Below, piece after piece: positions 7,182 through 30,107 of a stretch of 64,000 nucleotides of DNA. The DNA is taken from assembly GCF_019754295.1 (NCBI RefSeq), contig NZ_VIRV01000007.1:60509-124508 (forward strand), read 5' to 3'. The translations under genes were made by a program, and so were the position numbers. The notes beneath the pieces were generated by a model. It was not told the origin of the DNA. It saw only the letters and a program-made list of their open reading frames with translations, and ran no database searches. This stretch comes from Sellimonas caecigallum. Its GTDB lineage: Bacteria > Bacillota > Clostridia > Lachnospirales > Lachnospiraceae. How positions within the stretch are numbered: position 1 is the stretch's first letter; each line of letters starts with the position of its first letter.

Positions 7182-7216
7182 GAGCTGAAAACAATTACAA
7201 ATGCAGAGAAGGAAGA

Positions 7217-27439: not shown

Positions 27440-27468
27440 ATGCCTCGGCCTTTGGCCGGGGCATTTTG
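27440..27468 (+). terminator. rho-independent terminator after GH18 gene
   Basis: ATGCCTCGGCC (27440-27450) pairs with GGCCGGGGCAT (27454-27464) around TTT, then TTTT. Its 3' arm and U-run overlap the -35 of the putative SigE promoter of cwlD. Confidence 0.9.
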
Positions 27469-27489
27469 CGGTTTGCGGCGTCATATACT
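27461..27489 (+). promoter_or_regulatory. putative SigE-dependent promoter of cwlD
   Basis: GCATTTT (27461-27467), exactly 14 bases, CATATACT (27482-27489). Compared with the B. subtilis SigE consensus GHATATT-N14-CATACAHT, 6 of 7 and 7 of 8 positions agree. It lies 36 bases before the cwlD start. SigE is the early mother-cell sigma factor. Confidence 0.55.
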
Positions 27490-27525: not shown

Positions 27526-27768
27526 ATGAAAGAAAAGATGAAATGGATTGTGCTGCTTTTCATGATGGCAATGGTTCTGTGGGGGATCCAGAAAGCGGAA
27601 AGTGTTGTGACGGAGGGCAAGTCAAGGATGCAAAAGGCGGATGTCGTTATTGATGCGGGACATGGCGGCTCTATAGTGCGCGGACGATACAGAAAAGGAA
27701 ACAAAATGTATAAGAAAGTCATCGAAAAAAGAACAAGCATAAAACCAGAGGAGGCGGACATAAGCTGA
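27526..27768 (+). CDS. cwlD: CwlD N-terminal part, interrupted by the recombinase element
   Basis: Codons 1-46 (to 27665) are genuine cwlD: a membrane anchor (MKEKMKWIVLLFMMAMVLWG) and the Amidase_3 start VVIDAGHGG with the first zinc-binding histidine. After the repeat ACATGG (27660-27665) the frame runs 34 codons into the element and stops at 27768, so the product as it stands is inactive. The rest of the gene continues at 29570. CwlD, an N-acetylmuramoyl-L-alanine amidase, begins muramic-delta-lactam formation in spore cortex, needed for germination. An AAAGGG ribosome site precedes the ATG. Confidence 0.9.
   Translation: MKEKMKWIVLLFMMAMVLWGIQKAESVVTEGKSRMQKADVVIDAGHGGSIVRGRYRKGNKMYKKVIEKRTSIKPEEADIS
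27650..27677 (+). promoter_or_regulatory. possible promoter created across the left junction
   Basis: TTGATG (27650-27655, in cwlD), 16-base spacer spanning the ACATGG repeat, TATAGT (27672-27677, in the element). It could drive the element genes only while the element is integrated here. Weak -35/-10 match; inference only. Confidence 0.25.
27660..27665 (+). repeat. left attachment core (attL) of the cwlD element
   Basis: ACATGG, in context GCGGGACATGGCGGCTC. The same six bases occur at 29564-29569. Recombination anywhere within them joins cwlD in frame. Confidence 0.85.
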
Positions 27769-27799
27769 AAACAAAGAAATCTCTTTTAAGGAGGGAAAA

Positions 27800-27943
27800 T
27801 TGGAAGAGAGACAGGACGCTTCATATACGATCCAAAGAGAATTTCTAGGGGAATATTCCGAAGAAGAACTTCTGATCCGCATCATCAGAGAACATGTAAG
27901 ACAGGAACAATGGAAAGAAGAGGAGAAAATCAGAAAGGAATGA
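27800..27943 (+). CDS. small protein upstream of recombinase, possible directionality factor
   Basis: 47 codons starting with TTG 27800, 6 bases after an excellent AAGGAGG site. Predicted sequence is charged and helical with Y-T-I-Q-R-E-F-x-G-x-Y-S-E-E-E-L-L-x-R-I-I-R, a pattern reminiscent of small TnpW-like proteins found with clostridial recombinases. Its stop overlaps the recombinase ATG (ATGA), so the two are translationally coupled. Large serine integrases need a small partner to excise; this is the only candidate in the element. Function is inference. Confidence 0.6.
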   Translation: MEERQDASYTIQREFLGEYSEEELLIRIIREHVRQEQWKEEEKIRKE

Positions 27944-29628
27944 AGACAAAAGAAAAAGATAAGGAAAAGCTGCCGACGGCCATCTATATACGCCTTTCCC
28001 AGGAGGATGGCGATAAAGAAGAGAGCGACAGTGTGGGAAATCAGCGGAAAATTCTTACAGAATATATTTCCAGGATGGATGACATGCTTCTTTGCGGGGA
28101 GTATATAGACGATGGATATACAGGGACAAACTTTCAGCGGCCTGGCTTTCAGGAGATGCTTTTCGATATGGAGAAAGGCAGGATACGGTGTGTGGTCGTG
28201 AAGGATCTGTCCAGATTTGGGCGGGATTACCTGGATGCAGGGCGGTATCTGGAGAGGATCTTTCCTGAGATGGGTATACGGTTCGTCTCGGTAGCTGATG
28301 GGATAGACAGTGCACGCCAGTCCTATGATATTCTCCTGCCCATAAAAAATCTCTTTAATGAACAATATGCGAGGGATATATCAAATAAAATCCAGGCAAC
28401 TGTGAAGACGAAGCAAAGAGCAGGCGAATTTATTGGATCTTTTGCAAGCTATGGGTATCAAAAAGCGCCGTACAACAAAAATAAACTGATCATTGATCCC
28501 TATGCGGCATCGGTGGTCCAAAAGATCTTTTCCCTGTATACAGGAGGAATGGGAAAACAAAGTATCGCGAAGCAGCTGAATGCAGAGGGTATTCTTTGTC
28601 CATCGGAGTATAAAAAAGTAAACGGAGAGAATTATAAAAACGGGAATCGTCTTGCGGGTACATCTTACTGGACATACTCTACGGTCAACAGTGTGCTGAG
28701 AAATGAATTGTATATCGGAAATATGGTTCAGGGAAAGAAACATCAGCGGATGCGGGGAAAACAGCAAGTGATGGATCCTGAACAGTGGATCCGCGTTTCC
28801 GGGACACATGAGCCGATCATAGAAGAGGAGGTGTGGAAGAAAACACAGAGACTTCTTTCCAGGAGACAAAGGGAGATCAATCTGAAAGAAGGAAGAAATA
28901 TCTTCGCAGGTATGATAAAATGCGGCGACTGCGGAAGAGCGATGACGAAAACATGCTGGACAAAAGCGGATAAAATGAGAGTATATTCCTTTTGCTGCGG
29001 AACATACAAACGAAACGGGAAAGCATACTGCAGTCCGCATATTCTGCGAATGAGCATACTGGAAAAAGTAATCTTAGACGATCTGCAGACGATCATCAGG
29101 AATGTATCAGACCTCAAAGAGCTGGTCAAAAGACAAAGGATTTTCCCTGTGAAGCCTAAGAAAATAGCGCCTGTGCAGGCAGAAAGGCTCCGCAAAGAAA
29201 AGGAGCATATTTCCTGTTTAAAAAAAGGACTGTATGAGGATTACAAAGAGGGACTGCTTACGAGGGATGAATTTCTTTCATACAAGGAAACATATCGAAA
29301 GAAAGAGGAAAATTGCCAAAAGCAGATAGAATGTCTGAAAGAGGCAAAGAGACAAGGAGCACAGACAGACAAACAGATCTTGGACACTCCATGGTTACGC
29401 CAATTTTTGGAAAGCAAAGAAAATATCTGTCTGGACAGGGATATCATCATAGAGATGGTAGATGAGATACTTGTGTATGAAGGAAATAGGATCAAGATCC
29501 GTTATCGATTTTCAGGGGGATCCCTTACTCGTGAATCATCATACGGCACAAGTAAGCTCCAGCACATGGAGGAAAAGACCCGGGAAAGATCGGGACAGGA
29601 GGGCAGCAGGAAAAAGATATCAACCTGA
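27940..29628 (+). CDS. large serine recombinase
   Basis: 562 residues from ATG 27940 (overlapping the upstream stop); ATG 27910 in the same frame is an alternative. Resolvase domain: catalytic S20 in YIRLSQED and the DLSRFGRD motif near residues 89-96. A 'recombinase' domain follows (about 165-300), then a zinc ribbon (CGDC near 328-331, later FCC and C) and a coiled-coil region (about 400-480). The last 19 codons lie beyond the right repeat and are cwlD DNA read in another frame; in the excised circle the protein would instead end M-A-A-L-stop. It should catalyse integration and excision of the element. Confidence 0.93.
   Translation: MKTKEKDKEKLPTAIYIRLSQEDGDKEESDSVGNQRKILTEYISRMDDMLLCGEYIDDGYTGTNFQRPGFQEMLFDMEKGRIRCVVVKDLSRFGRDYLDAGRYLERIFPEMGIRFVSVADGIDSARQSYDILLPIKNLFNEQYARDISNKIQATVKTKQRAGEFIGSFASYGYQKAPYNKNKLIIDPYAASVVQKIFSLYTGGMGKQSIAKQLNAEGILCPSEYKKVNGENYKNGNRLAGTSYWTYSTVNSVLRNELYIGNMVQGKKHQRMRGKQQVMDPEQWIRVSGTHEPIIEEEVWKKTQRLLSRRQREINLKEGRNIFAGMIKCGDCGRAMTKTCWTKADKMRVYSFCCGTYKRNGKAYCSPHILRMSILEKVILDDLQTIIRNVSDLKELVKRQRIFPVKPKKIAPVQAERLRKEKEHISCLKKGLYEDYKEGLLTRDEFLSYKETYRKKEENCQKQIECLKEAKRQGAQTDKQILDTPWLRQFLESKENICLDRDIIIEMVDEILVYEGNRIKIRYRFSGGSLTRESSYGTSKLQHMEEKTRERSGQEGSRKKIST
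29564..29569 (+). repeat. right attachment core (attR) of the cwlD element
   Basis: ACATGG in context CTCCAGCACATGGAGGAAAA, direct repeat of 27660-27665. The right-hand flank GGAGGAAAAGACCCG resumes the cwlD frame. Confidence 0.85.
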
Positions 29629-30107
29629 AGATTGCAAAAAAGCTGAAAAAAGAGTTGGAAGCCCGCGGACTGAAAGTGAAAATGACGAGAAAAGACGATG
29701 CAGGACTTTACGATGAGTCGGCGGAAAACAAAAAGGTACAGGATCTGAAACGAAGAGTAGAACTGATCAATGAGACACAGCCGGATATCGCGGTCAGCAT
29801 CCATCAGAACAGTTACCCAAGTGCCGATGTGAAGGGGGCGCAGGTATTCTATTATGCAGATTCCCCAGAAGGAGAGAAGATGGCGGGAAAGCTGCAGAAA
29901 AGGCTGGCTGCTCTGGATGAGAAGAATGACCGTGCGATAAAGGCAAACGATACATATTTTCTTCTGAAACGGACGGAAGTACCGACGCTGATCGTAGAGT
30001 GCGGATTTCTGAGTAATCCGGAAGAGGAAAAACTTCTTACCGATGACGAATATCAGGAAGAAATGTCGAAAGCCATCGCAGAAGGGATCATGGATTGCCT
30101 GAAGTGA
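29570..30107 (+). CDS. cwlD: CwlD C-terminal part, separated from its start by the element
   Basis: Open frame continuing cwlD at G-K-D-P-G-K-I-G, then EKDINLKIAKKL, VKMTRKDD, SIHQNS (second zinc histidine), GAQVFYY, and IVECGFLSNPEEEKLL with the catalytic glutamate. The order and spacing follow B. subtilis CwlD closely. There is no start codon or ribosome site at its 5' end, so it can be made only after excision of the element. Its reading is intact to the stop at 30107, which argues against decay into a pseudogene. The Sua5 fusion gene follows 39 bases later. Confidence 0.9.

Follow-up and report, generated by a model that had tools for sequence, protein, structure and literature searches.

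The gene-intervening elements of sporulation described so far include gin, skin, vfbin, SPbeta/spsM and yin (PMC5595907, PMC10747680). Here we describe an element of the same kind in a 64,000-nucleotide stretch of the Sellimonas caecigallum genome (contig NZ_VIRV01000007.1; hereafter the window), where 1904 bp carrying a large serine recombinase split the spore gene cwlD, and we consider it likely that this element is cut out in the mother cell during sporulation, whereby cwlD is rejoined. The excision, its timing and its restriction to the mother cell are predictions made from assembled sequence. The gin element in gerE of Bacillus cereus ATCC10987 resembles the window element in being of non-phage nature, in lying inside a sporulation coding sequence, in using a serine recombinase, in having a short common core (9 bp in gin) and in restoring the frame. 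It differs in that it is 28.6 kb long, has three recombinase genes and has been demonstrated to excise, with GirC and GirX (PMC5595907), whereas the window element has 1.9 kb, one recombinase, another host gene and an excision predicted from sequence. The skin element in sigK of C. difficile likewise carries a serine recombinase and splits a mother-cell gene, but it is prophage-like and much larger, and its recombinase is constitutive, the timing being set by a sigma-E-controlled recombination directionality factor (PMC5025042). With regard to yin in yabG of C. botulinum, the first open reading frame (ORF) after the 5' part of the interrupted gene is that of the recombinase, as in the window, but yin is a prophage whose excised form is found at all time points (PMC10747680).

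All features of the locus lie on the forward (+) strand, and coordinates refer to the window. The 5' half of cwlD (27526..27665) encodes a membrane anchor followed by VVIDAGHG, corresponding to residues 1-46 of the sister CwlD proteins, and its open frame continues into the element as far as a stop at 27766-27768. The intervening element occupies 27666..29569 and is flanked by two copies of ACATGG placed 1904 bp apart, one at 27660..27665 (the core of attL) and one at 29564..29569 (the core of attR), the latter with CCAGC ahead of it, which is also the case in several of the related elements. The 3' half (29564..30107) runs from HGGKDPGK to the stop and holds most of the catalytic domain. Joining at ACATGG yields 678 bp, that is 225 codons plus a stop, without internal stop or frameshift, and the joined frame reads through DAGHGGKDPGK, the split point being located in the codons of the zinc motif (GHGG). 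An earlier note on this DNA had claimed both the split by 1904 bp bounded by ACATGG and the clean 225-codon join through GHGG, and both were borne out, with the repeats starting at 27660 and 29564. We compared the source genome (G000, 99.7% complete) with two genomes of the same genus (G001 and G002), both of which contain the uninterrupted cwlD whose presence in relatives the note had proposed to look for. The joined protein could be aligned with both of these unsplit counterparts over residues 1-225 at 63-64% identity, indicating that the restored frame is not due to chance.

The best NCBI family of the joined protein is TIGR02883 (spore_cwlD) with 218.6 bits, 3 bits short of the curated cut-off of 221.55. 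This cut-off is missed in 54 of 61 genomes and passed in 7, and the unsplit cwlD genes of the same genus score 206 and 220 bits. The 3' half gives 206 bits by itself (profile positions 9-188) and 171 bits to Amidase_3. By sequence, the nearest solved structure is C. difficile CwlD (7rag_B), both for the joined protein (E 1.3e-39) and for the 3' half (E 9.6e-36). As judged by its best family, its full-length match to the sister genes and this structural neighbour, the joined product would be CwlD-like. It is unlikely that the halves work separately without being joined, as the first zinc-ligand motif is encoded by the 5' piece, and the 3' piece supplies the other conserved residues; the zinc-ligand roles are those that we take these residues to have in CwlD. 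An assembly artefact was ruled out, since the database clusters of the recombinase (36 member sequences) and of the 3' half (29) are each many-membered.

The recombinase gene (27940..29628) encodes 562 amino acids (aa) with Resolvase, Recombinase and zinc ribbon domains, all three above the profile cut-off. It extends beyond the right repeat to a stop codon at 29628 within the 3' half of cwlD, from which its last residues are read. The start is very likely the ATG at 27940, which gives the same 562 aa as in database cluster P0001. The earlier note had correctly placed a large serine recombinase between the halves, but the ATG start, the stop beyond the right repeat and a small ORF ahead of the gene had been missed or put slightly off. 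The best solved relative by sequence is the catalytic domain of TnpX of Tn4451 (2mhc, E 3.5e-26), in which YERLS is aligned with YIRLS of the window recombinase, so that the RLS motif is kept; we take the serine of YIRLS to be the nucleophile. TnpX differs in acting in a transposon and in its choice of target. The small ORF (27800..27943) encodes 47 aa, begins with TTG behind AAGGAGG and overlaps the recombinase start by 4 bp (ATGA). Both genes run in the direction of cwlD and together fill about 1.77 of the 1.90 kb, and neither the ORF list nor a profile search revealed any conjugation gene inside the element. The element thus has short direct repeats, a frame-restoring join and its own recombinase with the domains of large serine recombinases, as intervening elements do, while the conjugation module between att sites that characterises an integrative conjugative element is absent from the 1904 bp. 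When the ends of the element were joined, arm symmetry peaked at the CA of ACATGG (11 of 25 pairs; mean 6, standard deviation 2.3), with an equal value at a second centre lying 6 bases further left; in a composite of the ends of two relatives, CA was clearly the best centre.

The 47-aa product contains 14 acidic and 9 basic residues and matches protein P0241 at 98% identity. It belongs to no Pfam or NCBIfam family, its best PHROGs match (E 0.03) gave nothing useful, and a protein search returned its own lineage only. A comparable small ORF precedes the recombinase in 16 of 24 relatives (13 of them aligned), which makes the 47-aa protein a candidate recombination directionality factor; several of the remaining eight have too little contig ahead of the recombinase to show one. 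Known factors of this type include small acidic proteins, and CD1234 and SprB are among them (PMC5025042).

Next we asked whether the split gene is maintained. A search with the joined protein covered 5.8 billion proteins, of which 7997 candidates sharing most words were scored and 120 were listed. Among the matches listed, no full-length protein exceeded 65% identity to the joined CwlD, and the CwlD of this lineage was found only as a 150-aa 3'-half fragment (P0126, 29 member sequences, 96% identical) that has five differences from the window 3' half besides the start; a joined form of the lineage would rank first in this search. Of these 120, 115 contain DxGHG, four are 3' halves (P0126, P0136, P0140 and P0176), and P0214 fits neither pattern. 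The window 3' half keeps 60 of 66 conserved columns, compared with 60 and 62 in the unsplit sisters. Measured against 14 outgroup CwlD proteins, it is closer than that of G001 in 9 cases, equal in 1 and farther in 4, and closer than that of G002 in 8 and farther in 6, showing no acceleration. The window CwlD is farther from its sisters (115 and 117 of 179 positions) than these are from each other (157 of 179). The recombinase belongs to cluster P0001 (36 members), the next match being at 64%, and its GC content at third codon positions (GC3, 0.481) is close to that of three neighbour genes (0.486-0.498) and of the cwlD 3' half (0.514), while GC3 ranges from 0.209 to 0.565 among 15 recombinase relatives. 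Host-like GC3 and the lack of matches above 64% fit long residence rather than frequent movement. The earlier claim that both halves are maintained was therefore upheld, the conserved residues being kept to the same extent as in the unsplit genes, and neither a joined nor a decayed form of the lineage having been seen.

Two of the listed fragments, P0136 and P0140, are severed CwlD 3' halves that begin with APHGG and PPHGG, respectively, and are 72-75% identical to that of the window, closer than the unsplit sisters. They suggest that in nearby lineages cwlD is probably split by other recombinase types. A scan of viral contigs with the window recombinase confirmed no relative, and one with P0140 returned a single amidase at 34%; a viral origin was set aside after these scans.

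The rest of the genome also bears on the fate of cwlD. It contains Spo0A, SpoIVA, PdaA (290 bits, cut-off 298), which is the partner of CwlD, and a sigma-E-like gene, and judged by its genes the host would be able to sporulate. An Amidase_3 profile search found no second CwlD; the other three matches are two proteins without the GHGG motif and one orphan 3' half of an Amidase_3+SPOR gene. A second intact cwlD elsewhere, which the earlier note had named as evidence against its reading, is accordingly not present among the matches of this search. Moreover, sigK is split (contig C1, 57323 and 82756; loci L105, L106 and L010) by 25,433 bp with a serine recombinase at the right end, and a join at AAATG is in frame and restores RCIENELLMLLRSRKK. 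The gene is unsplit in G001, and none was found in G002 at the threshold used. The genome thus already carries one classical skin-type element. The analogy with skin, on which the earlier note had relied, gains support from this second split sporulation gene and from the published control of C. difficile cwlD by mother-cell sigma-E (PMC6021603). None of the five other serine-recombinase loci of the genome is near a severed gene of the spore-wall types.

The orphan mentioned above (contig C23, 114089-114577; L002, L114) begins with TAHGG and lies, by eye, behind a MATE-like gene; an arm at this locus resembles the right ends of related elements. Two pattern searches of the genome did not find its 5' half, and contig C23 has no recombinase relative. 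We therefore dropped it as a third split gene and report it as an orphan. Apparently broken, it shows that loss of such genes occurs in this genome, and it favours a different explanation for cwlD, namely that the insertion is dead and cwlD lost, so that spores germinate poorly, another route is used or sporulation itself has been lost. It also fits this explanation that cwlD is dispensable for spore formation in C. difficile, where its deletion leaves spore numbers normal and only germination suffers, by 2-3 logs (PMC6021603). However, the two cwlD halves have open frames and a conservation equal to that of the unsplit sisters, all recombinase domains are present, the sporulation genes include pdaA, and cwlD is split wherever the CwlD of this lineage was found among the matches listed. 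We therefore regard a dead insertion as unlikely. On the 16.6-kb contig C24 (L126) we also noticed a 36%-identical serine recombinase together with an ORF whose product looks, by eye, like a tetracycline resistance protein of the ribosomal-protection type.

To place the element among its kin, we examined 24 recombinase relatives at 33-64% identity and 22 more from 22 of 396 other genomes of the family, giving 46 loci; six repeat others (identical recombinase), leaving 40 distinct ones. Host genes were sought among CwlD, Amidase_3+SPOR, other Amidase_3 and PdaB. A severed 3' half of one of these gene types lies on the same stretch in 34 of the 46 loci, mostly within 300 bp of the recombinase, and in 30 of the 40 distinct loci, or 31 when a split pdaB seen in a larger flank (L073) is counted. 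The hosts among these 31 are Amidase_3+SPOR (CwlC-like, as we presume such genes should be called) in 15 cases, PdaB in 9, CwlD in 5 and other Amidase_3 in 2. Representative 3' halves were named by NCBIfam and Pfam (PdaB with 190 bits, cut-off 237; Amidase_3 plus SPOR), and at all 35 places, repeats included, the residues ahead of the 3' half are not the gene's own, so that the genes are truly severed. The window recombinase falls in a clade of 21 rows (support 99/98), 17 of which, its own included, adjoin an amidase gene. The earlier reading as a whole stands with regard to anatomy, the analogy with skin and the maintained halves, but not with regard to the element being a one-off, since this recombinase lineage repeatedly splits spore-wall genes.

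Five recombinases more than 95% alike by branch length (L015, L016, L017, L018 and L024) are spread over three bacterial families and have CwlD, CwlC-like or other Amidase_3 genes as hosts, indicating that the conserved GHGG codons, and not one gene, are the target. These near-identical copies would also be expected of a small, self-mobile element that moves from one amidase gene to another and sits in cwlD by chance, with no tie to sporulation. The window recombinase, in contrast, is a single lineage that has no match above 64% elsewhere and has host-like GC3, and hopping is in any case compatible with excision in sporulation; we hold it very improbable that chance hopping is the whole explanation.

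Two of the relatives, L100 (= L018) and L101 (= L011), are Tn916-like conjugative elements that split cwlD and carry TcpC, NlpC/P60 and VirB4-like AAA_10 genes. They share with the window element a recombinase 62-64% identical, the same HGG codons of cwlD and the CCAGCACATGG right end, but they differ in their size of at least 11-15 kb, in their conjugation genes and in having the recombinase gene at their extreme right, far from the host promoter. At the other extreme, L079 (G130:C17, 278-1925) consists of 1647 bp with the recombinase alone, and its host is an Amidase_3+SPOR gene, interrupted at GHGG, whose halves join cleanly as DPGHGGRDPG; L079 is the smallest such element seen in this analysis. 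Small elements for which both host halves were found are those of the window (1904 bp), L079 (1647 bp), L023 (4640 bp), L025 (about 5.3 kb) and L029 (6265 bp), and in four of the five (the exception being L025) the recombinase directly follows the host 5' half on the same strand, as expected if the host promoter drives the recombinase. From these relatives we infer that the window element is a minimal descendant of integrative conjugative elements that land in spore-wall genes. The ancestor would have attached at the GHGG codons of Amidase_3 genes and subsequently lost all but its excision genes.

Some loci show further arrangements. At L026, L028, L031, L032, L070, L072, L084, L085 and L145, sister recombinases interrupt genes for PdaB-like sporulation deacetylases just before WGNED, the pdaB 5' half at L145 ending with FDAAW. 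At G107:C49 (L146) two related serine recombinases are separated by about 2.6 kb, and a pdaB 3' half adjoins the second of them; these are possibly stacked elements. At G201:C14 (L104), near 7207, a cwlD-like 5' half (DAGHGG) is located about 12 kb upstream of a related recombinase, after whose right end there is no amidase.

A match to a sigma-E-type promoter, GCATTTT-N14-CATATACT (27461..27489, + strand), agrees with 12 of 14 consensus positions and ends 37 bp before the cwlD ATG, and by eye its CATAT box is kept in G001, G002 and G201. The scan, in which CATA was required and spacers of 13-16 were allowed, covered both strands of the whole window and gave three sites scoring at least 12 on each strand. 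In the part of the element that precedes the recombinase gene (27666 to 27940) it found no sigma-E-like site, and a timing promoter there was rejected on this ground. If the cwlD promoter is sigma-E dependent, as we suppose, the onset of cwlD expression in the mother cell would also make the small protein and the recombinase, one transcript running from this promoter through the 5' half, the small ORF and the recombinase gene. The recombinase, perhaps aided by the 47-aa protein, would then recombine attL with attR at ACATGG and leave the rest of the cwlD transcription unit as a whole gene. The circle would disappear along with the mother cell, the element would persist in the forespore chromosome, and the joined CwlD would help make muramic-delta-lactam and thereby give spores able to germinate.

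Several observations weigh against such a developmentally timed excision. The 5' half is so short that it has only 4 scorable conserved columns (all kept), and the conservation may partly predate the insertion. Open frames are in themselves weak evidence of maintenance, as the Amidase_3+SPOR orphan shows: its 3' half is still open, although no 5' half was found in this genome. Nine of the 40 distinct relatives (L019, L021, L027, L034, L075, L076, L078, L082 and L086) have no host gene of the kinds looked for; as the search was limited to these gene types, they may lie in something else, and L021 has a DVGHGG 5' half nearby and L019 a DAGHGG 5' half about 12 kb upstream. The 1647-bp relative lacks the small ORF, which makes the role of the 47-aa protein doubtful. 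As for the promoter, five other sites in the window equal or outscore the match upstream of cwlD, and one of these five lies in the recombinase gene; the -35 of the match upstream of cwlD is by eye not conserved in the sister genomes. Finally, a sigma-70-like match spans attL, so that expression need not be tied to sporulation; such matches are about as numerous as by chance (6 found, 4.6 expected).

The match across attL would suit a switch that is not developmental, in which low-level excision and re-integration in all growth phases give a fraction of the cells an intact cwlD. Precedents for this are yin in yabG, which is both integrated and excised throughout the time points (PMC10747680), and the constitutive expression of the skin recombinase in C. 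difficile (PMC5025042). Against it, the search with the joined CwlD revealed no full-length form of the lineage among the matches listed, although assemblies would miss a minor form, and the sole promoter-like feature with support from kin is that upstream of cwlD. We consider such a switch quite unlikely, and excision in the mother cell remains the reading that we prefer.

We found no intervening element in cwlD in the openly licensed literature, in agreement with the earlier statement that none had been described, and the main text of a survey of 6,207 recombinases with attachment sites does not contain the word 'amidase' (PMC10083194). What is new here is the host gene cwlD, the very small size of the element and the kinship of its recombinase with those of conjugative elements that land in spore-wall genes, whereas the kind of element (skin/gin-type) is already known. 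On a broader view, which we put forward tentatively and hold to be plausible rather than probable, this recombinase lineage lands in the catalytic-site codons of cwlD, cwlC-like and pdaB genes across families and has been reduced more than once to a self-timed DNA intron of less than 2 kb, removed in the mother cell by way of the host's sporulation promoter; the genome studied here would then run at least two rearrangements (sigK and cwlD) per sporulation.

The elements of this kind in the papers cited here span tens of kb and contain much unrelated DNA, which makes it hard to tell what developmental excision needs. If the proposed excision is true, the 1.9-kb element and its 1.65-kb relative define a minimum, consisting of a recombinase, possibly one helper, two sites and a host promoter, and cwlD, which acts in spore germination, joins the rearranged genes. 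The occurrence of conjugative and reduced elements at the same places in spore-wall genes points to a possible route from mobile element to developmental switch, and where a genome annotation has cwlD as absent or disrupted, the gene may simply be split.

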